A DNA stretch of 64,000 bases from contig NZ_CP151650.1 of NCBI RefSeq assembly GCF_038397775.1, positions 62,001-126,000 of the forward strand. The letters run 5' to 3'. Under the pieces are notes generated by a model that was given only the letters and a program-made list of their open reading frames with translations, made no database searches and was not told the origin of the DNA. A program made the translations under genes and the position numbers. Shown piece after piece: positions 39,379-63,055 of this stretch. This stretch comes from Pseudomonas sp. RC10. Lineage in GTDB: Bacteria > Pseudomonadota > Gammaproteobacteria > Pseudomonadales > Pseudomonadaceae. Positions within the stretch are counted from its first letter, which is position 1. Each line of letters begins with the position of its first letter.

Positions 39379-41994
39379 CTAAATAGCGCGATTCGCCCTG
39401 AGAGACTTGAAAGTAGCGTATGCTGCGGGGTTCGACCTGACAAAGCGACCGTAAGTGTCGGCGTTTGAGAGCAGCACTTTACTCCTGATTTTTTCGTCCC
39501 CGATGAAGCGTTCAAGCGGCGTTCTTTTGGAAAATACCGAAACTATCTTTGATCGTTTGGCAAGGTCGTCGAAGGCTTCGCGATTCAAGCTGTGGGCGTT
39601 TACCAAGATGGGGCCGCTGGCGGCAATCTTGACTAGATTACCGGCCACGAGCCTGGCGTTTTCAGACAGCTCCTCATCGCTCACATTACGCCCGGAAAAC
39701 GGGATATTTTTATTATAAAAAACATCCCTGGTGTTATGAGAAGCATGACTTGCTTCATGTATCAGCGTGTCAGCGACTTCAAGAGGATGAGCATCCATGA
39801 CGTGATCTTCACGCAGGGCCATCGTTTTCTGTGGTGCATATGGCCTGACGCCGAATGTAACGCCCGCTGCTGAAGCACCGCTATATAAGCTCACCTTCCA
39901 GCCATTCTCACCATTAAGACTTTGCAGGTAATCACGTTGTTGTTTGTAATTACCGCGCAGTTTCTTGATGACTGATTTTCTTTGCTGGTTTGATAATGTG
40001 CCAAATGCTGCTTCAAGCGAGGCTTCCGTGCCTTTGTCCAGCGACGAAGAAGATAATCCAGCGATTGCATCGTCTAGCAACGTTGTCGCCAGGACCAGCG
40101 CCTCCTCGAACGCCACGTTCTGAGCCGCACTGAACTCACCTCTCCCTCGGGCAACAAACTTGAAAGGCACCCCATTGGCCCCATGCATTTCGCCTTCATG
40201 CAAAACGTCGTAAGGCGCAGCGCCGAGCACGTCGCCATAGCGCACCGGCGAATTGCTCGCGAACCGATACCGATTCAACCCGTCCATCTCCCCCGCCGGG
40301 TCTGGATTGATCCAGCGGCATAGCCACGGTGCGTAATACCGAAGCCCGTAGTCATACAAGCCAGTGGCATCGCGCTCCCTGCCTGAGTAGCGCACGAAAC
40401 GATACTTCACCTCGGTGGCGCTTCTGGCAGCACTCCAAGCGGTGCCGCCGTAGGGGTAATAGATCTCTTGGCTGATCAGTCTCGTCTCGGAATCGAGTTC
40501 CAGCGTGGTCGAGCCCAAGTGGTCGGTCAGTAAATAGCGCGGCTGATTGTTTGTCAGTTCGGCAGGCCTGCCTTGCACCCAATGCAGCACGCGCACGCCG
40601 CAGACGTCGAGCACATGCAATGTCTCGCCCGTGGCGCTGTTATTGCGAATCTGGAGGTCAGGCAGGTACAGCACGTCTTCAACCAGCGAATGGCTTCCCG
40701 CCTTGGCATGACGCGTCTTGCATGCACGCAGGTTATCAGCGCCATAAAGATAACGCTCGTAGTCGTCATTGCCGTCATCACGCTGCACCGGACTCACTCC
40801 GCTTAGCCGGTTGTGGCTGTCCCACTGCAACGACTGGCCAGGCTGCAGTTGCTGCAGGTTGCCGTTCGCATCGAAGTCCGGTGGGTTGTCCTTGAGATGG
40901 GCGCGGTTGCTACTGCCACACACCTGCCAGGTGCGTGTGAAATTCTTTGCGCCAACATGCACCAACTGCAGCATGTTGCCGCCCAGGTCGTAGTCGTAGG
41001 TTTCACTGTAGATAGCGATGCCTTGATTGTCCGCCGCTTCATAGCCGGTGGCTTCGATCAGTTGGTAGTGGATATCGTAGGCGAAGGTGCGCACCGGCTC
41101 GACGCGCTGGTTGTTGAAGTGCCGAACGGGCTGCGCAGCGTCTTCGATGCGCAGTGGGTTGCCTACGGGGTCGTAGCGGTAGGTCAGGTCCTGCAGCACC
41201 GTGCCGTCTGTGCAACGGCTGCGCAGTCGGGCCAAGCGACCATCGGCAGGATCATACTCACGCTCGGTGCCTACACCATTGCCTAAGGTTTGCGCCTGAA
41301 GGCGGCCTTCGGCGTCATAACACGTGCTGCTGATCATCAACCGACCCATGGCCTGCGCAGTATCCGCCTCGCCGCTCACGGATGCCGTGAATCGGCGTAA
41401 ATGGCCGCCGGCATCAGTCTGCTGCTGAACATCCCCAAGTGGACCATACGCCCAATGCGTGCGCAGCATCGCTGTGGGAGCGATTTCAGTTGCAACAACC
41501 TCTCGCCCTTGAACCAACACCTGCCCCCCCAGCGCATAGTGTTCATTTACCAGCCTACCTGCCTGATCCCGCTGCTCGGTCAGGCGCCCGCAACGGTTGC
41601 CAGCAGCCTCATCGGCGGCGCCATAGGCATAACACTCAACACGGATACCGCTTTCAAACACTGCAATGGGCCGCAAAAGCGCGTCATGTTCGACACGCCG
41701 GACAAGCCCCCGGCCGTCGCGCTGCTCGACTGTCTGTCCGGCCTCACCAAGCAGCGAAAGCTGCCAGCCAGCGTCGGCACATTCGGCCGACAGCTCCGTT
41801 CCAGAGAGTGCGTAGAGAGATCGACGGCTAAAAAGACGACGGGCGTCGAAACGCTCGATCACTCGCGCGGCGTTATCGAATACGTCGCGCTCGCGGCGGG
41901 CACCACGAATCGTCAAAACAACCAATTGCCGAGAGTCGCGCGCAGTGATGCTGGCGGTACGCGCATGCAGAAAAGCATCCATATGGGCATCCAT
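39379..41994 (-). CDS. RHS/TccC-like protein with a putative zinc-metallopeptidase tip
   Basis: An 871-residue RHS-repeat protein of the size and layout of Pseudomonas TccC-like toxins. Residues up to about 590 are YD/RHS repeats. The RHS core motif follows (RYYAPWLCRWINPDPAGEMDG, then LNRYRFASNSPVRYGD), after which such proteins cut themselves and carry a variable toxic tip. The last about 270 residues contain HEASH at 746-750 in LIHEASHASHNT, with a SDEELSENARL segment 25 residues on that could give the third ligand. This suggests a gluzincin-type protease. The tip DNA is visibly AT-richer than the core. No secretion tag is seen. A transposase remnant ends one base before the start codon, so the native promoter may be lost. 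Confidence 0.82.
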   Translation of the reverse strand: MDAHMDAFLHARTASITARDSRQLVVLTIRGARRERDVFDNAARVIERFDARRLFSRRSLYALSGTELSAECADAGWQLSLLGEAGQTVEQRDGRGLVRRVEHDALLRPIAVFESGIRVECYAYGAADEAAGNRCGRLTEQRDQAGRLVNEHYALGGQVLVQGREVVATEIAPTAMLRTHWAYGPLGDVQQQTDAGGHLRRFTASVSGEADTAQAMGRLMISSTCYDAEGRLQAQTLGNGVGTEREYDPADGRLARLRSRCTDGTVLQDLTYRYDPVGNPLRIEDAAQPVRHFNNQRVEPVRTFAYDIHYQLIEATGYEAADNQGIAIYSETYDYDLGGNMLQLVHVGAKNFTRTWQVCGSSNRAHLKDNPPDFDANGNLQQLQPGQSLQWDSHNRLSGVSPVQRDDGNDDYERYLYGADNLRACKTRHAKAGSHSLVEDVLYLPDLQIRNNSATGETLHVLDVCGVRVLHWVQGRPAELTNNQPRYLLTDHLGSTTLELDSETRLISQEIYYPYGGTAWSAARSATEVKYRFVRYSGRERDATGLYDYGLRYYAPWLCRWINPDPAGEMDGLNRYRFASNSPVRYGDVLGAAPYDVLHEGEMHGANGVPFKFVARGRGEFSAAQNVAFEEALVLATTLLDDAIAGLSSSSLDKGTEASLEAAFGTLSNQQRKSVIKKLRGNYKQQRDYLQSLNGENGWKVSLYSGASAAGVTFGVRPYAPQKTMALREDHVMDAHPLEVADTLIHEASHASHNTRDVFYNKNIPFSGRNVSDEELSENARLVAGNLVKIAASGPILVNAHSLNREAFDDLAKRSKIVSVFSKRTPLERFIGDEKIRSKVLLSNADTYGRFVRSNPAAYATFKSLRANRAI

Positions 41995-48012: not shown

Positions 48013-48975
48013 CTAGGTCAGACAGTTCGCTAGCTGCGCCGTCAGTTGGGCCTCGGTTTGGGGCTCGTCGAAGATCAGTTCAAGCCTCGAATCCTTGCGC
48101 CATTCGCTCGGTGCCCATTCAAACTCGGCCCTCTCCAGCGCATTGCCCGAAACCCACCCCGATCCGCTGTGGATAACCAGCTTGGCACGGCGCCATTCAT
48201 GGCTTCGCAGCCACGCCCGGACTTTGGTCGCATCGAAGATACGCTCCGGGTGCCAACGCCAGCCAATGCTCCAGCCTTCAGGCTGAGCCTGACTCAGACA
48301 AATCGGCGTCATCGGGTCGACCCAAACCGCTGGCAATTGAGCAAGAGATCGGGGCGCAACGAACTTATCCACACCCTCATTGGCCTTTGCATCGATGCCG
48401 GGCAAGCGCTGCAGCGGCAGCGCGCCAGATTCAGTCCAGCACACAGCGCGTTCGGGCAGCATCGTGACGAGGGTGTCTCGGGCCGCGGCGTTCAGCCCCT
48501 CCGATTTGTTAAGCACCAACAGACCGGCGTTTCCCACAGCCTCTTGTTGAGTCGGCGGGAGGGGTTTTCCGGCTGCAAGGGCCTGAGCGTCCAGAACGAT
48601 GACGCTAGGCTGAACGGCCAACACCCCGAGCCACGGCGCCTCTCGCAATTGCTTCAACAGCTGGACGGGATGCCCAAGACCGGACGGCTCGATGAACAGT
48701 CGGTCCGGCCGAGCCTTGCGCAGCAATCGACCCAGTCCGATCTGAAACGGCGCACCGTTGACGCAGCACAGGCAACCACCAGCGACTTCACCAAGTGCGA
48801 TACCATCTTGCGCCGTGCTGAGCAGTGCCGCGTCCAGACCGATCTGGCCGAACTCGTTGATCAGAATCGCCCAGTGTTCATTCGGCGGTTTCTGTGACAG
48901 CAGGTGCTTGATCAGGCTGGTTTTGCCTGCGCCCAAAGGGCCAGCAATGACATGGGTGGGGATGTTCTGCAGCAT
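48013..48975 (-). CDS. CobW/COG0523-family GTPase
   Basis: A 320-residue P-loop GTPase of the G3E family, to which metal chaperones belong. It has Walker A GPLGAGKTS at residues 12-20, GGCLCCVNGA (the CxCC metal-binding motif) near 64-73, the LVLNKSEGL guanine-recognition segment, and a short CobW C-terminal domain. The start ATG at 48975 places the P-loop at the usual distance; a longer upstream frame is spurious. It is one of two COG0523 proteins within 3 kb (see 49537-50739). They differ in sequence, so they may serve different partner metalloproteins. Confidence 0.88.
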   Translation of the reverse strand: MLQNIPTHVIAGPLGAGKTSLIKHLLSQKPPNEHWAILINEFGQIGLDAALLSTAQDGIALGEVAGGCLCCVNGAPFQIGLGRLLRKARPDRLFIEPSGLGHPVQLLKQLREAPWLGVLAVQPSVIVLDAQALAAGKPLPPTQQEAVGNAGLLVLNKSEGLNAAARDTLVTMLPERAVCWTESGALPLQRLPGIDAKANEGVDKFVAPRSLAQLPAVWVDPMTPICLSQAQPEGWSIGWRWHPERIFDATKVRAWLRSHEWRRAKLVIHSGSGWVSGNALERAEFEWAPSEWRKDSRLELIFDEPQTEAQLTAQLANCLT

Positions 48976-49029
48976 GTCCGGCCATTCTTGAACGTCGCTC
49001 CCGAGAACGAGCGCAGACGGAGGTAATGA

Positions 49030-49401
49030 ATGCGAGCAATCTGGCTGCCCACGCGGCTGGCGTTGGTGCTGTTGGCGGTCACGTCGGGTCAGGCGTGGGC
49101 CGAATCCTGTGTAGTCCACAGCCAGGCCGAGCGGCTTGACGTGAAAGTCTGTCAGGAAAATCTCACCATTCCGCCCGATCTGTTCCATAACGGCTTCTGC
49201 AAACCGCAGTTGAAGGATCAGAAAATCGAAGTGACCTACGCCGAACAGTGCCCGAGTGGGTCATTCGGCCAGTGCAGCAACGCGCAAGTCGCCAATATGC
49301 CTTATCGGCAGAACATTCACTATTACGGCGTGGCCAGCGATGCCGCCTTCCTCAAACCGTTCTGCGAGGAGCAGAGCAAAGGGGTGTGGAAGGCGCAGTG
49401 A
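49030..49401 (+). CDS. Exported Cys-containing small protein
   Basis: A 123-residue protein with a clear signal peptide (MRAIWLPTRLALVLLAVTSGQAWA) and six cysteines in the mature part (ESCVV, VCQEN, GFCKP, EQCPS, GQCSN, PFCEE). They probably form three disulfides in the periplasm. I do not recognise a domain. It lies between the two COG0523 GTPase genes, divergent from one and convergent with the other. In Pseudomonas such a gene commonly sits in the Zn-responsive block, so a metal-related role is possible but not shown. Confidence 0.75.
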   Translation: MRAIWLPTRLALVLLAVTSGQAWAESCVVHSQAERLDVKVCQENLTIPPDLFHNGFCKPQLKDQKIEVTYAEQCPSGSFGQCSNAQVANMPYRQNIHYYGVASDAAFLKPFCEEQSKGVWKAQ

Positions 49402-49536: not shown

Positions 49537-50739
<1,203 letters not shown>

Positions 50740-50777
50740 GGAGGTCTCATCAGGTAGCAGGTTCAGGTGCTTTTTAC

Positions 50778-50790
50778 GTTATAGTATAAC
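50778..50790. promoter_or_regulatory. Zur box between zigA and the divergent exported protein gene
   Basis: GTTATA-G-TATAAC is a perfect 13-base palindrome that matches the core of the proteobacterial Zur consensus. It lies 38 bases from each of the two divergent start codons, the best position for Zur to repress both. Confidence 0.85.
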
Positions 50791-50828
50791 AATACAAACC
50801 TGCTAACACTTTTTACAAGGTCCGCTCG

Positions 50829-51221
50829 ATGGTCAGGGTTTCCAACGTGTTCGCCGGGTTTGTCGCTCTGCTGCTAGGCACACAGGTGTGGGCTGCACCT
50901 CCGTCGCCGAGGCTGGATCGGGCGTTATGTACGCGCAGCGCAACGTTGCTGGCGTGCATCGACGCCTATAACAACCAGTACAGCGTGGCGATGTCGGGCA
51001 CGACGATGTATTTGCGCGGGTACGAAAGCGTGGGCAATCGCACGTGGGCGCAAACCAACAGCCGTTATGGCTCGATGACGTTTTTCACGGGGTTGGCCTC
51101 GGATGGCGAGGCCTGGGTGGGGTACATCCAGAAAGTCGGCTGGACGACGATCAGCCGGGTGTCCAGTTCCAGCGGCAGCCGGAGCAAGATCACCTGTGAT
51201 CGCGTGATGGGCTGTCGCTGA
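50829..51221 (+). CDS. Small exported protein of unknown function, Zur-linked
   Basis: A 130-residue protein with a signal peptide (cleavage expected after WAA, about residue 23) and four cysteines (ALCTR, LACID, ITCDR, MGCR) that could pair. The mature part is Ser/Gly/Tyr-rich with no recognised domain. It begins 38 bases from the Zur palindrome, divergent from zigA. It is therefore a good candidate for an exported protein made under zinc limitation. Its function is unknown. Confidence 0.75.
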   Translation: MVRVSNVFAGFVALLLGTQVWAAPPSPRLDRALCTRSATLLACIDAYNNQYSVAMSGTTMYLRGYESVGNRTWAQTNSRYGSMTFFTGLASDGEAWVGYIQKVGWTTISRVSSSSGSRSKITCDRVMGCR

Positions 51222-55172: not shown

Positions 55173-56357
55173 TTAAGCGTAAAGATCATCCCGCGTCAGC
55201 GGCAGGTCGTGGCTGCCATCGGCTCGGGGCTTCACGGCCAGAATCTGATGCAGGTTGATCCACCCCTTCGAGAACGCATACGCGCAACCCGCCAGGTACA
55301 GCCTGAAAATCCGCAAGGCCTGTTCCGGCACCATCGCCGCCGCCACGTCGAGCTTCTCTTCCAGACGCGCGCTCCAGTGGTCGAGGGTTTTGGCGTAATG
55401 CAAACGCAGACTTTCCACGTCCACCACTTCCAGCCCTGCTTCGCTGATGAACCCGCTGATCATCGCCAGATGCGGCAGCTCGCCGTTCGGGAACACGTAA
55501 CGGTCAATGAAATCTCCGGCGCCGCGCCCCACTGGACGGCCATCGGTGTGCTTGGCGGTGATGCCGTGGTTCATTACCAGACCGCCCTCCTTCAACGCGC
55601 CGAACAGACATTTGGCGTACAGCTCAAGGTTGGCGTGGCCCACGTGTTCGAACATGCCGACGCTGACAATCTTGTCGAAGCGGCCATCTTGCGGCAGGTC
55701 GCGATAATCCAGCAGTTGCAGCTCAACCCGGTCTTCCAGCCCTTCGGCTTTCACGCGCTCCCGCGCCAGCGCCAGTTGCTCGCGGCTCAGGGTGATGCCG
55801 AACACTTTCACACCGTACTCACGCGCGGCGAAGCGGGCCAATCCGCCCCAGCCACAGCCCACGTCGAGCAAGTATTCCCCAGGCTTCAGGCGCAGTTTCC
55901 GACACAGATGATGGAATTTGTCCTGCTGCGCTTGCTCCAGCGTCTCGGTGCCGGTCTTGAAGTAGGCGCAGGAATACACCATTTCCTTGTCCAGCCACAG
56001 CCGGTAGAAGTCATTGGAAAGGTCGTAGTGGTAGGAGATCGACTTGGCGTCGGTTTCTTTGTCGTGCTCGGTGCGCACCGGGACGACGTCGTCATCCTCG
56101 TCCACCAGCGCGGCGGTCAACTCGTCGCAGACGCGCATGACTTCGCTGATCGAGCCTTCGAGCTCCAGACGGCCTTCAACGAAGGCGCTCCCCAGCAGGT
56201 CGAGACTTGGGTGAGTGAAATCGGACACCAGCGAGGGGTCCTTGACGACAATCGTGACGCTGGGGTCTGCCCCCAACTCGACTTCATTGCCATCCCAGAG
56301 CTTGAGTCGCAGTGGTAAGTGAAGCTTCTGTAACGCCGGTGGAAGTTGCGCGAGCAT
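55173..56357 (-). CDS. cfa: Cyclopropane-fatty-acyl-phospholipid synthase
   Basis: Transfers a methylene group from S-adenosylmethionine to unsaturated acyl chains in membrane phospholipids, usually as cells enter stationary phase. The 394-residue protein has an N-terminal lipid-binding domain and a C-terminal methyltransferase domain with the SAM motif LLDVGCGWGGLARFAA near residues 170-185. Further family segments are YSCAYFK near 139-145 and SVGMFEHVGH near 239-248. The start at 56357 (MLAQLPPALQ) was chosen by comparison with the family; a GTG at 56384 in frame would add nine residues. It is convergent with cls, another membrane-lipid gene. Confidence 0.93.
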   Translation of the reverse strand: MLAQLPPALQKLHLPLRLKLWDGNEVELGADPSVTIVVKDPSLVSDFTHPSLDLLGSAFVEGRLELEGSISEVMRVCDELTAALVDEDDDVVPVRTEHDKETDAKSISYHYDLSNDFYRLWLDKEMVYSCAYFKTGTETLEQAQQDKFHHLCRKLRLKPGEYLLDVGCGWGGLARFAAREYGVKVFGITLSREQLALARERVKAEGLEDRVELQLLDYRDLPQDGRFDKIVSVGMFEHVGHANLELYAKCLFGALKEGGLVMNHGITAKHTDGRPVGRGAGDFIDRYVFPNGELPHLAMISGFISEAGLEVVDVESLRLHYAKTLDHWSARLEEKLDVAAAMVPEQALRIFRLYLAGCAYAFSKGWINLHQILAVKPRADGSHDLPLTRDDLYA

Positions 56358-56603
56358 TGAGAAAAACCCCTGATCCAGAAACACGGAAAAGGGTAGTCCA
56401 AAACCGGTTCCAGAGCAGGAACCGCCAGGCTATCGGCTTTTATGAATGACAACGTGGAACCTACTGCCGGGTACTTCCATGCCCCCAGGTTTCGAGCCAA
56501 TTTGAAGCCTGCAATGGAGCACCCTCTGCATGACTGATAGGTAATTTGTTACAGAGTTCTTCAAAGCTCAAGCGAATTTTTATACTTAGTGCAGGCGTCT
56601 AAT

Positions 56604-56637: not shown

Positions 56638-58599
56638 TTACGACGGCATGTGAAATTTCGCGATGGGTTCGTGAAAGCGCAACAGGCGCCCCGCGTTGCC
56701 CAAAACCAGCAGCGTGCTGAGGTTGTGCAGCACAGCGGCGATCATCGCCCCCGCCGCACCGAGGACGCCAAAGGCTGCCAGTGCGACAATCGCCAGCGTC
56801 CATCCCAGCCCGATAATCACGTTCACCTGCAGCGTGGAGCGGCATTGGCGGCTCAGACGCACGCATGTGCCCAGACGACGCAAGTCACTGCCGATCAGCA
56901 CGATGTCGGCAGAGGCCAGCGCAATGTCCGCACCACCCGCCCCCATCGCCACGCCGACGACGCCTGCCTTCAGCGCGAGGGAGTCGTTGATGCCGTCGCC
57001 CACGACCATGGGCCGGAAGCCACTCTTGATCTCGCCCATGACACGGTTGAGTTTGTCTTCGGGCAATGCCTGCGCGTGGATGTCGCGGATGCCGACCTCC
57101 GCGCCGAGGCTGTCCGCCACGCTCTGACGGTCGCCGGTCAGCAGCAACTGACGCCCCATTCCCAGCTCGCGCAGTTCGCTCAACGCCTGACGCGCCTCTG
57201 GTTTGAGGCTGTCCGCCAGCAGCAGCCAGGCCAGGAACACGCCATCGACCGCCAGCCCCGCAATCGGGCCGTCATGGTTTGGCACGGGCGAGGTTTCGAT
57301 TCCCAGTTGCGCGAACAGCTCGGGACGGCCCATCGCCGCTTCGCCACGACCCGTTTGCGCGATGACCCCCAGCCCCTGACGTTCGCGAATGTCTTCCAGC
57401 GCCAGCAAATGATCCTTCTCCACCAGCCCTGCCAGCGCGCGACTGACCGGGTGGCTGCTGGCCGACCCGAGACTGGCCGCGAGCGTGATCACGTCATCGC
57501 CCGCGCCCTCTTCGGCTTGCACCGATTGCAAACGCAGACTGCCGTAGGTCAGCGTGCCGGTCTTGTCGACCACCAGGGAGGTCAGGTCCGCGAGCTCTTC
57601 AAGAAACGCCGAGCTGCGAATCAGAATGCCGTGGCGGGCCGCGACTGCGATCCCCGCGATGGCTGTGGCAGGTGCCGACAACACCAGCGCACAAGGACAC
57701 GCCGCCACCAGCACAGCAAGCATCGCCTGCGCGTTGTTGGTAATGAACCAAGTGACCGCCGCGATCAGCAACACCAGCACCATGTAGCTGCCCGCGTAGC
57801 GCTCCAGCAGGCGCGTGATCGGCGGCTTCGAACGTTCGGCGTTCTGCATCAGCGCGATGACTTTGCCGAGCGTCGATTCGTTGCCGATGCGCGTCACTTC
57901 GATGCGCAGCAGACCGTCGAGGTTGATCGCGCCACCGAACACTTCCATGCCCGCACGCGCTTCGAGAGGCACTGATTCTCCCGTGATCGGCGCGGTGTCG
58001 AGACTGGCCTGACCCGACATCACCAAACCGTCAGCAGGCACCCGATCACCGGCGCGCACTTCGACGCGATCACCCGCGACGAGGGAGCCGTTGTCCACTT
58101 CCCGAATCGTGCCGTCTGCCCCGATCAAACGCGCATGGCTGCGGGTGAGTTTGCCGAGGGCCTGAATCGCCTCTTGCGAGCCGATGACGCTGCGCTCTTC
58201 CAGCACGTGGCCGAAGATCATGATGATCGGCAGCAGCGCGGCGGTCATCAGGTCGCCCGTGGCCCATGCACCGAGCATGGCCAGCGCGATGAGCTGATCC
58301 GTGATGCCGTGCAGGCTCGGGTAACGCAGGCTGTACCAACCGGCGCTGACCACGGGGATCGCCACCAGCAGCGAGGCGACGCCCAGCAGCAATTGGCTGA
58401 CGCCGACCTGCTCAGGGGCGAAGAATCGCCAGACCAGCCCCAGCGCCAGCAAGCCCAGGGCGAGCATGGCCAAGGTCAGTTGTCGCGCAGCGCTGCGCTG
58501 TTCGTTGCTGGTCAGCATGCTGCCGGGCGCGGGCGCTTCGGCGTGGCCATGATCGTGCTCGTGGGTGTGGTCGTGGTTATGTGCGGCGTCGGCACTCAT
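56638..58599 (-). CDS. hmtA: P1B-type heavy-metal ATPase, HmtA-like (Zn/Cu)
   Basis: A 653-residue ion pump of the inner membrane. The N-terminus is His-rich (HNHDHTHEHDHGH, residues 7-19), suiting zinc or copper. The core has the metal-pass motif Cys301-Pro-Cys303, TGES at 206-209, the phosphorylated Asp345 in DKTGT and the His383-Pro pair. There is no Cys-x-x-Cys HMA domain. Overlap by 4 bases with an SPFH-protein gene and two more SPFH genes upstream recall the P. aeruginosa hmtA locus, whose pump is reported to import Zn and Cu. The alternative, a CadA/ZntA-type exporter, is less likely from the company it keeps. It is the last gene of a four-gene operon. Confidence 0.82.
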   Translation of the reverse strand: MSADAAHNHDHTHEHDHGHAEAPAPGSMLTSNEQRSAARQLTLAMLALGLLALGLVWRFFAPEQVGVSQLLLGVASLLVAIPVVSAGWYSLRYPSLHGITDQLIALAMLGAWATGDLMTAALLPIIMIFGHVLEERSVIGSQEAIQALGKLTRSHARLIGADGTIREVDNGSLVAGDRVEVRAGDRVPADGLVMSGQASLDTAPITGESVPLEARAGMEVFGGAINLDGLLRIEVTRIGNESTLGKVIALMQNAERSKPPITRLLERYAGSYMVLVLLIAAVTWFITNNAQAMLAVLVAACPCALVLSAPATAIAGIAVAARHGILIRSSAFLEELADLTSLVVDKTGTLTYGSLRLQSVQAEEGAGDDVITLAASLGSASSHPVSRALAGLVEKDHLLALEDIRERQGLGVIAQTGRGEAAMGRPELFAQLGIETSPVPNHDGPIAGLAVDGVFLAWLLLADSLKPEARQALSELRELGMGRQLLLTGDRQSVADSLGAEVGIRDIHAQALPEDKLNRVMGEIKSGFRPMVVGDGINDSLALKAGVVGVAMGAGGADIALASADIVLIGSDLRRLGTCVRLSRQCRSTLQVNVIIGLGWTLAIVALAAFGVLGAAGAMIAAVLHNLSTLLVLGNAGRLLRFHEPIAKFHMPS

Positions 58600-59663
58600 T
58601 TGTCGGCTCCCTGAATGATCAGGCGTGAATCGTCATGGGGATTGACCGTCGTCACGGAACCGGCCTGCTTGAGAATGCCCGGCACGCGCTCGCGGTAGAT
58701 CCGCAGCAGCAGACCGGGGTCGCTCTTGTTCTGGATCGATTGCGCCAGACCGGTGACCGCAGCGGTGTCGGTCTGCGCCTTGGCCAGTCGCTCGGACGCC
58801 TGAGCATGGGCGACCTGCAAGGTGCGGTCGGCCTGCTGATTGGCAGTCTGGTTTTGCTTTTCAGCATCTGTGCGGGCGTTGGCCACGGCCTGGTCGGCTT
58901 GCTGGCTGGCGGTCAGCACGGCGTTGAAAGCGTTGACCGCAGCGGGTGGCAGGCTGGACTGCACGTCCACCCGCACCACTTCCACACCCAGACCAATGCC
59001 GGTCGCGGTCAGGTCTTCGAGGCGGGTATTGATGCCCTGCACCAGATCACCCCGCAGACGCTCACGGCGCTCGGCCGCCTGACTGTCGGAGCCTATCAGT
59101 TCGGGGCGCGCCACCAGAATCGTGTCCAGATCCCGCGCTGCCGTCAGGCTGACCGCGCTGCGATTGACCAGACGATCCAGCGCAGGCAACACGTGCTCAC
59201 CCTGCAACACGAACTCACGGGGGTCGGTGACCTTGTAGTACGCCGTCACATCCAGCTGTACGACACCGGCATCGCCCGTCAGCAGGTAGCCCGAACCGGC
59301 CAGCGCGTCACTCATTGGCGTCGCGAAGCTGGTGACTTTGTCAGCGGCCTGGGCCGTGGGCGAGCGCAGCAGCGTTTCCACATGGCGTTCGATCACGCGA
59401 TCCGCTGACGGCAGCAGCACCACTTGCTCGAAAGGCTGCGGCCAGGCGAGCAAGAGACCGGCGTTCTGCACGCGATCCAGCTCGCCAAAGCGGAAGACCA
59501 CGGCGCGGTTTTGCGGATCGATCTGGCGCACGTTGGACACCGCCCAACCCAGTGCCGCCAACAACGTCACGACATACAAGCCCATGAACGCCAACCGACT
59601 TGCTTGCAGCCAAGGGCTGCTCACCGCCGGGCGCTCGATCGGGGTCGAGTCCTGCTCACTCAT
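58596..59663 (-). CDS. SPFH-domain membrane protein (HflK-like)
   Basis: A 355-residue protein with one N-terminal membrane helix (about residues 25-45) and a prohibitin/SPFH domain: VRQIDPQNRAVVFRFGELD near residues 46-64, then a long helical region rich in Gln and Ala (SQQADQAVANARTDAEKQNQ near 250-270). HflK/HflC pairs form large cages that modulate the FtsH protease. Here the protein is a divergent relative encoded within a metal-pump operon. It overlaps both the preceding SPFH gene and the P1B-ATPase gene by 4 bases, so synthesis is tightly coupled. A role as scaffold or quality control for the pump is inferred. Confidence 0.8.
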   Translation of the reverse strand: MSEQDSTPIERPAVSSPWLQASRLAFMGLYVVTLLAALGWAVSNVRQIDPQNRAVVFRFGELDRVQNAGLLLAWPQPFEQVVLLPSADRVIERHVETLLRSPTAQAADKVTSFATPMSDALAGSGYLLTGDAGVVQLDVTAYYKVTDPREFVLQGEHVLPALDRLVNRSAVSLTAARDLDTILVARPELIGSDSQAAERRERLRGDLVQGINTRLEDLTATGIGLGVEVVRVDVQSSLPPAAVNAFNAVLTASQQADQAVANARTDAEKQNQTANQQADRTLQVAHAQASERLAKAQTDTAAVTGLAQSIQNKSDPGLLLRIYRERVPGILKQAGSVTTVNPHDDSRLIIQGADK

Positions 59664-60703
59664 GGCTGCGTTCCAGCTTTGCCATCCGACTTGCCATCAA
59701 GGCTCGGCGGGCCATCCACCAATACGCGGAACGGCGCGGCGTCTGTGCGCAGGATCAGCTTGGTGGTCGGGCCGACCACGGTGCCGAGGGTGTCCAGCGA
59801 GCGCAGCAGGTTGTACAGCTGCGGCGAGCTGGCGTAAGCGCGGCCGTAGATGAGAGCGGCTTCGACGCGGGATTGCGCTTCGATGTCGGCAGCTTTGACG
59901 GTGGCGTCCGCTTCGACGATGCGCGCATCGCGTTCGGCTGCCGAGCGGATCTGCGCGGCTTCACGCTTGCCGATGGCCGTGCGTTCGGTGGCGATGGTTT
60001 CACGTTCGGCGCGCATGCGGTCGACCGTCGCGTTGAGGGTCACCGACGGCAGTGTAAGACGCTCGACGCCCACTTGCAGGACGCGTACGCCATAGGTCGT
60101 CAGCAATTGCTTGTCGATCTGCTGGCGCAGTTGGTTTTCGAAGTCGCCGATCCGCACTTGATTGGCGTCGGTGTTGATCAGGCTCGACAGGTCGAAGCTC
60201 GCGGCCGTGGTTTCCAGCGCCGAACCGACGAAGGTGCGGATCTGCCGCGCCGCTTCGTCCGGTTCGTTCTGCACCGCACGCATGAAGCGCTTCACGTTGT
60301 CGGGGTCGCCCTGCACCTGCCAGGCGACGTAGGCCTGCACGATGATGCGCAGGCCATCGCGGGTGCCCACGTCCTGCAAGCCGCTGGAGGTGGTGCGCAG
60401 CCTCAGGTCCACTGGAATCGCTGCCTCGAATGGCGCAGGCCAGCGCCAGCTCAAACCCGGGTCGAGCAGCACGCGGGACGGGTTACCGAAACGGGTGATG
60501 ACAGTGGCTTCGCCAGAACGCACCTGCACCAGGCTCGCGGCTGCCACGGCAAACGCGATCAACACCGCTGCCAGCCCGGCGCGACGCCACGGAAAACCCA
60601 CCGGCCCCGACGCTTCGCCGTGGTGGTGGCCATGGTGATGACCGTGACCGCCGTGGTCGTGACCTGAATGGTCGTGATGGTCGTGGGAATGAAACAGACT
60701 CAA
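59660..60703 (-). CDS. SPFH-domain membrane protein (HflC-like) with a His-rich tail
   Basis: A 347-residue protein. Residues 6-29 are an extreme His/Asp/Gly run (HSHDHHDHSGHDHGGHGHHH and further), a likely cytoplasmic zinc sink. A membrane helix (about 43-60) and an SPFH domain follow: SGEATVITRFGNPSRVLLDPGLSWRWPAPF near 63-92, with a helical stalk GKREAAQIRSAAERDARIVEAD near 248-269. HflC proper lacks such a His tail. The gene overlaps the next SPFH gene by 4 bases and follows the previous one by 11 bases. Metal sensing or buffering next to the pump is inferred from the tail. Confidence 0.8.
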   Translation of the reverse strand: MSLFHSHDHHDHSGHDHGGHGHHHGHHHGEASGPVGFPWRRAGLAAVLIAFAVAAASLVQVRSGEATVITRFGNPSRVLLDPGLSWRWPAPFEAAIPVDLRLRTTSSGLQDVGTRDGLRIIVQAYVAWQVQGDPDNVKRFMRAVQNEPDEAARQIRTFVGSALETTAASFDLSSLINTDANQVRIGDFENQLRQQIDKQLLTTYGVRVLQVGVERLTLPSVTLNATVDRMRAERETIATERTAIGKREAAQIRSAAERDARIVEADATVKAADIEAQSRVEAALIYGRAYASSPQLYNLLRSLDTLGTVVGPTTKLILRTDAAPFRVLVDGPPSLDGKSDGKAGTQP

Positions 60704-60714
60704 GGGACGACTCC

Positions 60715-62700
60715 TTATTCAGCCATTGGCTGTTCAGCCGACTTTGGCGACGCCGCAGGGTCGACCGGGAGGGTGAAAGAACGCAGATCGATAGTGGGGG
60801 CGCTGGTGCCGCCCAGTCGATGATCCAGAACGAGCAATTTGGCGTGGGTCATGCCCAGGGTCAGTTGACTCAGATACTGCTCCAGCAGAAACGCCTGACC
60901 GGCCTTGGCGTAGCCTTGTTGTTCGGCGCTGAAACGCAGGTCCGCGCTTTGCGCCGTGGCCATGACTTCGCGGGACGTGGCGGCGGCTTGATCGTGCGCT
61001 ACGCTGGCGTGCAACTGCGCCAGGTTGGCCTGATCGGCAGCGGCGCCTCGTTCGCGGGAAATGAGCGCTTGAGCGCTGATCTGCGCCGCTTGAACGGCGT
61101 GATACGCGTTGGCGGCACCGGCTGGCGGGTGAATCGATTCGACGACCGTCGCGAGGATTTCCACGCCGCTGTCGAGTTTTTTCAGGTCCCGCGCCACAGC
61201 AGTGCCAATGTCGGCGGCCAGATCAGTGCGCTGCTCGCCGAGCAATTCATCAAGGGTGCGCGAAGCGAAATCGTGGACCAGCACGCGGCTGGCGGTGCTG
61301 CGAATCAGGCTCGGAATGTCGGCGCTGTTGTAGGTCGCGGCCATAGCGGACTGATCGTCGAGACCGATACGGTAGACGAAGCGCACGTCCATGTTGACGA
61401 TCTGGAAGCTCTGCTTGTCGCCCGAACCGCTGGCGATCACTTGGGATTTGTCGTTGATGTGGGTCGCGTCCCACAGTCGGTTCGCGACGGCAGGCGGTGG
61501 ACCTTCAGCCGGATCGCGCACCTGTTCCGCGTCGTTGTTTTTGGCGTTGGTGCCCTCGGAAACGCTGGTCGCCAACTCGTGCACGACGCCATTCTCTACC
61601 GGCAACACCGTCCCGAACGGCCATGGCAGCCCGGCGTGCAGGCCCGGTCCCATGACTTCGACGGGCTTACCGAAACGCTCGTAAATGCCTCGCCCCTGCA
61701 TCGGAATTTCGTGCACGCCGCTCAGGGCCCAACCCAACGCGACGATCACGGCCATGACGGGCAAGAAGGCGCGGCGCATGTAGGTAAACGCCCAGATCTG
61801 CCGCAGGTCGATGCCGAAGCGGTTGTGCAATTCGTTCTGCAGCGCAGTCAGCGGACGCGGCGGCCAGCGCAGGAGACCAGCAGCGAAACTGCTGGCGACC
61901 AGACGCGGCTCAAGCCGGTCGTTGCGCGGGCTGAAGACTGAAAGCAGTGCGCGGATCAGCAATTCCACCGCCACCAGTCCCGGCAGCAAGCCGATCAACA
62001 CGGCCAGTCGTGCAGGCCAGACCCGCTCAACCGACGAAAAGAACAGACAGAGCGCCGCAATCAACAGCGTGCCAATGGCCATGCGCGTGATCTGCGCCAG
62101 TTGCTCGGCTTCAGGCCAGGACGCTTCGGATTCGTTGCTGAACTGGCGTTCCAGCACCAACAGACCAAAGCCGATCAGCAGCAAAAGACCGCCCACCACA
62201 CTGCCGGTCAGGCCGACGTTGGTACCGATTAGTGTGAGGTTCCAGACCAACGAGATGCTGATCAGCGCCAACAGTGACCAGCCCGCGAGCCAGAACACCG
62301 ACGCCCCGATCTGACCAACCATCGAGGTTCCGGCCCCGCCGATGCGACCGAGCATGCGGTCGTACCAGCCCTGCTCGTCGGCAACGACGTCTTCGTCCGG
62401 CACCACCGCCACGTCGTCAGGCGCGATGACACGGGCGCGCCACAAGGCCACCACCTGCGCCGACTGCATCGCCGACGCCAGCACCAGCAGGCTCGCGGCG
62501 CTGTTGGTCAGCACGGCGGTCCAGAGGGAATTAGGGGAAAACAGGTCAACGAATAACGAGAGCACCAGGCCGATCACGCCCATGGCGCCCAGCACGTAGG
62601 TCAATCGCGACAGGCGTCGAGCGTGAAAGCTCGCGCGCTGAAACCTCGGCAGACTTGCAGGCGTTGCACCTTCAACATCCAGATCAACCCGCATCGACAC
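60715..62700 (-). CDS. Large membrane SPFH-like protein with polytopic N-terminus
   Basis: A 661-residue protein and the first gene of the operon. The N-terminal half has about seven hydrophobic segments (for example 36-54, 60-80, 138-158, 162-184, 209-228, 231-250 and about 318-335). The C-terminal half is an SPFH-type domain (GRGIYERFGKPVEVMGPGLHAGLPWPFG near 350-377, then the STASRVLVHDFASRTLDELL segment). Ordinary HflK/HflC proteins have a single helix, so the polytopic half is peculiar. I do not recognise it as a known transporter. A Zur-like site at 62784-62796 lies 84 bases upstream. Confidence 0.72.
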   Translation of the reverse strand: MSMRVDLDVEGATPASLPRFQRASFHARRLSRLTYVLGAMGVIGLVLSLFVDLFSPNSLWTAVLTNSAASLLVLASAMQSAQVVALWRARVIAPDDVAVVPDEDVVADEQGWYDRMLGRIGGAGTSMVGQIGASVFWLAGWSLLALISISLVWNLTLIGTNVGLTGSVVGGLLLLIGFGLLVLERQFSNESEASWPEAEQLAQITRMAIGTLLIAALCLFFSSVERVWPARLAVLIGLLPGLVAVELLIRALLSVFSPRNDRLEPRLVASSFAAGLLRWPPRPLTALQNELHNRFGIDLRQIWAFTYMRRAFLPVMAVIVALGWALSGVHEIPMQGRGIYERFGKPVEVMGPGLHAGLPWPFGTVLPVENGVVHELATSVSEGTNAKNNDAEQVRDPAEGPPPAVANRLWDATHINDKSQVIASGSGDKQSFQIVNMDVRFVYRIGLDDQSAMAATYNSADIPSLIRSTASRVLVHDFASRTLDELLGEQRTDLAADIGTAVARDLKKLDSGVEILATVVESIHPPAGAANAYHAVQAAQISAQALISRERGAAADQANLAQLHASVAHDQAAATSREVMATAQSADLRFSAEQQGYAKAGQAFLLEQYLSQLTLGMTHAKLLVLDHRLGGTSAPTIDLRSFTLPVDPAASPKSAEQPMAE

Positions 62701-63055
62701 TCCACACCTTGCTGAACGCTGTAGTCATTACCCTGCCTGTCCACGTCGTGGGATACGCATCCCGAAACACAGTTTAACGGGGCGTTACGATATAACAGAA
62801 GTCGTGAAATTTTCGTCTGATCAATACGCCGGAACATGACGAATTATTCACTCAGACAGCCAGCAGACAGGTTAGCCCGCAAAGGGCGCCCCCACGACGT
62901 CATTTTCTGCGCGCGGGCCTTGCATCGGCGTGCGCCACAGCGTCAGATACCTCCTACAAAATTCCTCTAAAAACACACACCGTTGACCCGCCTTCTTCGA
63001 TCCGCTCGACACGAGACGAGTGGCCGCTTGAAGGGTCAGCGCTGGAGCCCGTTTG
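62701..63055. other. Divergent control region between the SPFH operon and a LysR gene
   Basis: There is no gene in this 355-base gap. It contains the Zur-like site (62784-62796) near the SPFH operon. The LysR promoter must lie to the right. A 66-codon minus-strand frame inside it has no protein features. Confidence 0.6.
62784..62796. promoter_or_regulatory. Degenerate Zur-like site before the SPFH/P1B-ATPase operon
   Basis: GTTACGATATAAC shares GTTA and TATAAC with the perfect Zur palindrome GTTATAGTATAAC at 50778. It lies 84 bases upstream of the first SPFH gene. Together with 52687-52699 it is the third such sequence within 12 kb. Confidence 0.5.

Follow-up and report, generated by a model that had tools for sequence, protein, structure and literature searches.

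HflK and HflC, which modulate the protease FtsH, build cages on the periplasmic face of the membrane, and HmtA of Pseudomonas aeruginosa is a P1B-type ATPase that reportedly imports zinc and copper, as relayed by the papers that cite its description. Here we describe a locus that brings the two kinds of protein together, three consecutive genes for SPFH proteins and one for a P1B pump behind a Zur-like box, in a 64,000-nucleotide stretch of the Pseudomonas sp. RC10 genome (contig NZ_CP151650.1, positions 62,001 to 126,000; hereafter the window). In the genomes searched, the pump and the SPFH trio are strictly linked. The locus type itself is already known as the hmtA cluster, PA2434-PA2439.

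In a znuA mutant PA2434, PA2435 (HmtA) and PA2437-2439 were up 5.6- to 14.4-fold, with a weak Zur site, and PA2437-2439 were annotated as members of the HflC/HflK family (PMC4542158). Zur shifted the PA2439 promoter in a zinc-dependent manner in an electrophoretic mobility shift assay (EMSA), and hmtA mRNA was not repressed by zinc (PMC8531726). HmtA and the PA2437-2439 proteins were raised under zinc depletion, some of these changes being non-significant (PMC11761036). The three SPFH genes have also been described as PaFlo5-7, forming one predicted operon; their triple deletion gave slight phenotypes, with about 20% less biofilm, and attenuation in Galleria is named in the Discussion (PMC13086221). 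The available main text of that paper mentions neither hmtA nor an ATPase. Locus tags match the PaFlo5-7 genes to PA2437-2439 (PMC9431628), and we therefore take PaFlo5-PaFlo6-PaFlo7 (PA14_33070, PA14_33080, PA14_33110) to be the same three SPFH genes as those studied here. A literature search made largely without subscription journals, and without the original HmtA paper, found no physical link between a P1B pump and an SPFH protein.

In the window the genes lie on the minus strand and follow each other, in the direction of transcription, as large SPFH protein, HflC-like protein, HflK-like protein and pump. The features referred to below are, by position in the window:

62783..62797, no strand assigned: Zur-like box TGTTATATCGTAACG (minus strand letters), some 90 bp ahead of the first start codon
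60715..62694, minus strand: large SPFH protein, 659 residues from ATG 62694 (661 residues for the open reading frame (ORF) from GTG 62700)
61921..62643, minus strand: six-helix N-terminal domain (residues 18-258) of the large SPFH protein, CDF/ZnT-like in its arrangement as modelled by AlphaFold
61042..61710, minus strand: SPFH/Band_7 domain of the large SPFH protein, residues 329-551
59660..60703, minus strand: HflC-like SPFH protein, 347 residues, TTG start
60620..60691, minus strand: N-terminal tail (residues 5-28) of the HflC-like protein, rich in His, Asp and Gly, before the membrane helix
58596..59663, minus strand: HflK-like SPFH protein, 355 residues, single anchor helix
56638..58599, minus strand: P1B-type ATPase, putative HmtA orthologue, 653 residues, with CPC at residues 301-303 and HN at residues 625-626
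58543..58581, minus strand: His-rich stretch near the pump N-terminus, residues 7-19, variable among orthologues

An earlier note, made from the letters of the window, had placed three SPFH genes next to a P1B pump with junctions of 4-11 bases and had read them as a single operon. The four ORFs lie on the minus strand as it placed them, and the Pfam domains agree (the three SPFH proteins each have a single SPFH/Band_7 domain, the pump has E1-E2_ATPase and Hydrolase). The junctions are an 11-bp gap between the large SPFH and HflC-like genes followed by two 4-bp ATGA overlaps (HflC-like/HflK-like and HflK-like/pump), and such overlapping junctions point to a single operon. For the large SPFH gene the ATG at 62694 is the more likely start, as the closest homologues have 659 residues and a GGAG lies 5 nt upstream.

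Linkage was followed through 38 relatives and 398 genomes of the phylum, which together make 435 genomes as the RC10 genome is common to both; these genomes are phylogenetically non-independent. For a match to count as strong, the large SPFH protein had to reach 510 bits and the pump 869 bits. Hits confined to the SPFH domain (51 bits or less) were disregarded, as were other pumps (305 bits or less), and the phylum searches scored up to three candidates per genome. Among the relatives, the large SPFH protein was found near full-length (at least 664 bits) in 15 of the 25 same-genus genomes, and the same 15 carried the pump (at least 74% identity, the best other pump among the matches listed reaching 39%). 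In the phylum set, the large SPFH protein turned up in 11 of the 398 genomes (510 bits or more, next match 51), and these 11 also had the pump (at least 67% identity, next 38%). Altogether, 25 genomes had both genes, 410 had neither and none had one alone. At all 25 loci the four genes stood in the same order on one strand. With start codons assigned by script, the 4-bp overlap of pump and HflK-like gene recurred at 22 of them, and order and tight junctions persisted where the large SPFH protein was as little as 43% identical.

The linkage extends further. In the aeruginosa-type genus, where SPFH genes were checked beside the pumps, 13 of 25 genomes had the pump, and all 11 that were newly fetched had the three SPFH genes upstream of it; one of the 12 pump-less genomes (G183) was searched for the large SPFH protein, and no match was found in the phylum search. 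When 84,980 species genomes were scanned with the large SPFH protein of Rhizobium, 61 loci came up (12 from Rhizobium or Rhizobiales, 49 from Pseudomonas), and the four genes stood in order at every one. Four of these loci (L150, L171, L188 and L192) may be damaged or interrupted copies, to judge from gaps of 236 to 505 bp in their matches, and at two (L152, L161) the contig ends within the pump. Close relatives of the pump are also present in Buttiauxella, Cedecea and Rahnella, and P. protegens carries the pump as well. A pump without its SPFH neighbours, an arrangement that the earlier note had counted against its own joint reading of the four genes, occurred in 0 of the 36 pump-bearing genomes. 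The comparisons of individual proteins below draw on a pooled set of 86 loci (24 fetched, 61 scanned and the window), 82 of them distinct.

Over 627 residues the pump shares 80% identity with P0147 of P. aeruginosa, a protein that has 1424 member sequences and is presumably HmtA; no record examined names it as such. The earlier note had likened the locus to that of hmtA, and this identity, with the same gene order in relatives, bears the likeness out: the pump is probably an orthologue of HmtA and the locus a counterpart of the PA2434-PA2439 cluster. Both have three SPFH genes directly upstream of the pump, in the same order and on the same strand (11/11 aeruginosa-type loci), and both have a Zur-like site before the first SPFH gene. 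They differ at the last junction. Whereas the pump and HflK-like genes overlap by 4 bp here, 604-642 bp separate them in 8 of the 11 aeruginosa-type loci (L213-L220), where the insert holds an ORF of 150-175 residues with a signal-peptide-like start in the position of PA2436. A 604-bp gap between the same two genes was also seen at L118. The insert ahead of the pump may account for hmtA alone looking unregulated in P. aeruginosa; the overlap found here would leave no room for separate regulation of the pump. The description of PaFlo5-7 likewise differs from the present picture in that the pump is inseparable from the SPFH trio in the genomes examined here.

Ten members of the pump family were then compared with 24 other pumps, the better non-family matches (L065-L069, L080-L098). 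The pump shares CPC, DKTGT, TGES and SHP with the P1B-2 zinc/cadmium exporters (ZntA/CadA) and with P1B-4 pumps, and scores above the NCBIfam cut-off of TIGR01512, a cadmium-type P1B subfamily. It differs from them in lacking an N-terminal metal-binding domain, except for the optional His tail, and in three motifs. In transmembrane helix 7 (TM7) all ten family members read GLGWT, where 21 of the 24 other pumps have Lys in the last column; TM8 carries HN[LFV]ST (10/10), with Asp at the first position in 21/24 others; and GDGINDS (10/10) stands in place of GDG[IV]NDA (24/24). A TM7 Lys and a TM8 Asp form part of the zinc path in the ZntA structure, and this exporter trait is absent from the family (0/10). 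Three of the 24 other pumps also lack the Lys and three also have a TM8 His (HE, HQ, HV), so it is the Thr/His/GDGINDS combination, present in 10/10 family members and 0/24 other pumps, that is peculiar to the family. Across the pooled loci CPC and GDGINDSLA were conserved in 86/86 and HNxSTLLVL in 83/86, the misses being the two contig run-offs and the damaged-looking L188. A quick tree set the family apart as a separate clade with a long stem. To judge from these motifs and the tree, the pump is a discrete P1B family. Two distinct pumps of this HmtA-like family are listed for Pseudomonas eucalypticola (P0137, P0185), and their longest contigs are equal in length, which suggests two copies in one chromosome.

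The three SPFH proteins were compared with HflK and HflC. In a quick tree with long branches, the HflC-like chain joined the HflC of its own genome (SH-aLRT, a likelihood-based branch support, of 89), whilst the large SPFH and HflK-like chains joined HflK (88) and each other (84). Solved-structure relatives were HflK in 3/3 cases for the HflK-like protein and HflC/HflK in 6/7 for the HflC-like protein. Going by this placement, the trio is two HflK-type chains and one HflC-type chain. Like HflK and HflC they have the SPFH fold and an N-terminal anchor, but all three fall below the NCBIfam equivalog cut-offs: 94.3 against 159.4 (hflK) for the HflK-like protein (P0002), 91.6 against 134.4 (hflC) for the HflC-like protein (P0003) and 55.2 against 159.4 (hflK) for the large SPFH protein (P0004). 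They differ too in carrying six extra helices on one chain and a His-rich tail on another, and in having the pump as genomic partner. The genome holds six SPFH genes: the operon trio, a separate hflK-hflC pair recognised by size, adjacency and similarity, and one further gene. At one locus (L122:7412-7897) the HflC-like gene stops after 161 residues with the other three genes open, possibly through a frameshift or an assembly error.

His-rich tails on both the pump and the HflC-like protein had been claimed by the earlier note, and here the two parted company. The N-terminal tail of the HflC-like protein held 8 to 20 His at 86/86 loci. The pump tail was not conserved, with 0 His at 41/86 loci and six or more at 26/86; the other two SPFH proteins had at most 3 His in the N-terminal tail across the set. 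Both His-rich segments are N-terminal, before the first membrane helix, and the positive-inside rule would place them in the cytoplasm; the tail of the HflC-like protein precedes a membrane helix with adjoining Arg residues. As evolution can dispense with the pump's own tail, that tail is probably not central to the mechanism.

The seven-helix half described in the earlier note for the large SPFH protein resolves into the six helices of the N-terminal domain and the SPFH anchor helix. The first six helices are modelled well by AlphaFold, with a pLDDT of 88, and in the model the domain appears to share the fold, though not the sequence, of CDF/ZnT (SLC30) zinc transporters, YiiP being one example. 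No sequence similarity to the CDF family was found: none of the 34 members scanned matched PF01545 at E up to 5, and hhalign of the domain against 30 script-selected CDF ORFs of related genomes gave a probability of 0.5%. The zinc ligands of CDF transporters are conserved Asp/His in helices 2 and 5. In contrast, residues 18-258 contain no invariant or 90%-conserved Asp or His among 64 sequences, and the domain further differs from CDF proteins in being fused to an SPFH domain. No SPFH protein tied to a CDF fold was found in the literature search, again largely without subscription journals.

The operon box is two bases off a symmetric Zur pattern. At no more than one mismatch this pattern occurs at six places in the genome, and five of these lie 35-124 bp before genes for ZnuD, ZigA, ZrgA, AztA and FolE2 (ZnuD typed from a fragment under its cut-off, ZrgA over the Pfam but under the NCBIfam cut-off); no such zinc-type gene was seen beside the sixth. 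With five zinc-type genes behind its sites, the pattern therefore serves as a marker of the Zur regulon. With up to two mismatches allowed it loses specificity (24 strand-hits in the genome against 8 in a reversed control) and, taken alone, the putative operon box is not significant. Of 25 orthologous loci, 23, that of the window among them, had a site scoring at least 10/14 no more than 200 bp upstream of the first gene. After mononucleotide shuffling about 7% of upstream regions reach this score, and the compared loci are related and non-independent. The Zur-like control proposed by the earlier note is thus favoured by a putative box conserved at 23/25 loci and by the EMSA and induction published for the P. 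aeruginosa counterpart.

At the Rhizobium loci (L139-L150) a palindrome, perfect or nearly so, GATACGTAATAACGTATC, was found about 80-155 bp upstream of the first gene, exact in 10/12. No second site within 3 mismatches was found in the one Rhizobium genome searched and, as a single site there, it could not be tied to Zur. Within the window, a second Zur-like box with one mismatch (50777-50791) lies about 6 kb from the pump operon and 37 bp before a gene for the zinc-metallochaperone GTPase ZigA (49537-50739, over the NCBIfam cut-off). This gene is adjoined by a second CobW-type GTPase (48013-49188, minus strand), the match of which is limited to the nucleotide-binding domain, from residue 77. 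About 40 bp beyond the ZigA box, on the plus strand (50829-51221), is a gene for a 130-residue protein with a signal-peptide-like start and four Cys, which had no match in Pfam or NCBIfam and is a candidate divergent Zur target.

The next gene after the pump on the same strand is cfaB, for a C17 cyclopropane fatty acid synthase (55173-56384, minus strand). It follows the operon at 57 of the 86 loci, counted among the 28 commonest neighbour clusters, which suggests synteny or, alternatively, a link to membrane lipid state. Upstream of the operon lies a divergent LysR regulator gene (Pfam). A scan for promoters and terminators gave one promoter-like and three terminator-like sites, no more than in shuffled sequence. 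Elsewhere in the window, an 871-residue protein (39379-41994, minus strand) has RHS_repeat as its sole Pfam match (41.9 bits).

We propose that this is a zinc-starvation operon building a dedicated zinc-uptake station, in which an HflKC-type ring organises the pump; of the readings considered it is the likeliest, at about even odds. Import rather than export is its weaker part. When zinc is short, Zur would leave the promoter, and the three SPFH chains, their N-termini inside the cell, would co-assemble like HflK and HflC into a ring or cage over the periplasmic membrane face. The CDF-like domain, which lacks conserved zinc ligands, may act as a module for docking or dimerisation and would hold the pump within or beside this ring. 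Each HflC-like chain would contribute one His-rich tail to a zinc-binding fringe at the cytoplasmic face of the pump that takes up or buffers the imported zinc. A ring around the pump fits the anatomy, the linkage and the zinc-starvation control. More tentatively, and with some doubt, the four proteins may make up a single, composite machine for zinc. A P1B ATPase belonging to a distinct family would work within a three-component SPFH ring, in which one subunit would be a repurposed CDF/ZnT domain fused to an HflK-type scaffold and the His-rich segment would have moved from the pump to the scaffold.

Other explanations were weighed against this. The trio could be a zinc-starvation version of HflKC acting on FtsH, either redirecting it or shielding the pump or other zinc-starvation membrane proteins from it, with the pump merely co-regulated. 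The placement of the three chains with HflC and HflK in the tree speaks for this, as do their solved-structure relatives; moreover, FtsH is a zinc protease, and the available parts of PMC9431628 and PMC11761036 point to an FtsH link for the P. aeruginosa genes. Yet scores well under the HflK and HflC cut-offs (94/159 and 92/134) and the separate hflK-hflC pair elsewhere in the genome argue against it, and neither the His-rich tail nor a trio never seen without the pump would be explained, so we consider it unlikely. A further explanation, joint horizontal transfer and shared regulation with no physical complex, would account for the patchy presence (15/25 same-genus genomes) and for the operon in Rhizobium and the pump relatives in Buttiauxella, Cedecea and Rahnella. 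However, no partial set was seen among 435 genomes, and order and tight junctions are kept at 43% identity of the large SPFH protein; this explanation is very improbable.

A last explanation concerns the direction of transport. The pump could be an ordinary P1B exporter of zinc or another metal into the periplasmic space under the SPFH cage, with the His tails feeding the pump and the cage keeping or passing on the metal. Its score above the TIGR01512 cut-off is in keeping with this, and cytoplasmic His-rich tails are usually taken as feeding or regulating exporters. Loading of zinc from the tails into the pump, as the earlier note had proposed, would fit an exporter; should the pump import, cytoplasmic tails would instead receive or buffer zinc. 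Against export, the pump lacks the Lys and Asp that 21/24 other pumps carry in their last two helices, and expression under zinc starvation, as published for the counterpart, makes little sense for plain export. We therefore think an exporter improbable.

New here are the strict linkage of pump and SPFH trio in the genomes searched, the discrete pump family, the constant His-rich tail of the HflC-like protein and the apparently CDF-like fold of the first six helices of the large SPFH protein. What SPFH 'microdomains' do in general is still debated and, if the proposed station is real, a bacterial SPFH assembly would gain a defined client, a transporter. It would also suggest why the deletion of paFlo5-7 looked nearly silent, zinc limitation not being among the assays noted in the available text (PMC13086221). 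The composite machine, if true, would be a P-type pump with its direction or coupling set by a scaffold, and the first SPFH-transporter hybrid. HmtA has stood out as a P1B pump for which import is claimed. Should it never occur without the three SPFH proteins, it has perhaps been studied without its partners, and the question of direction becomes directly testable.

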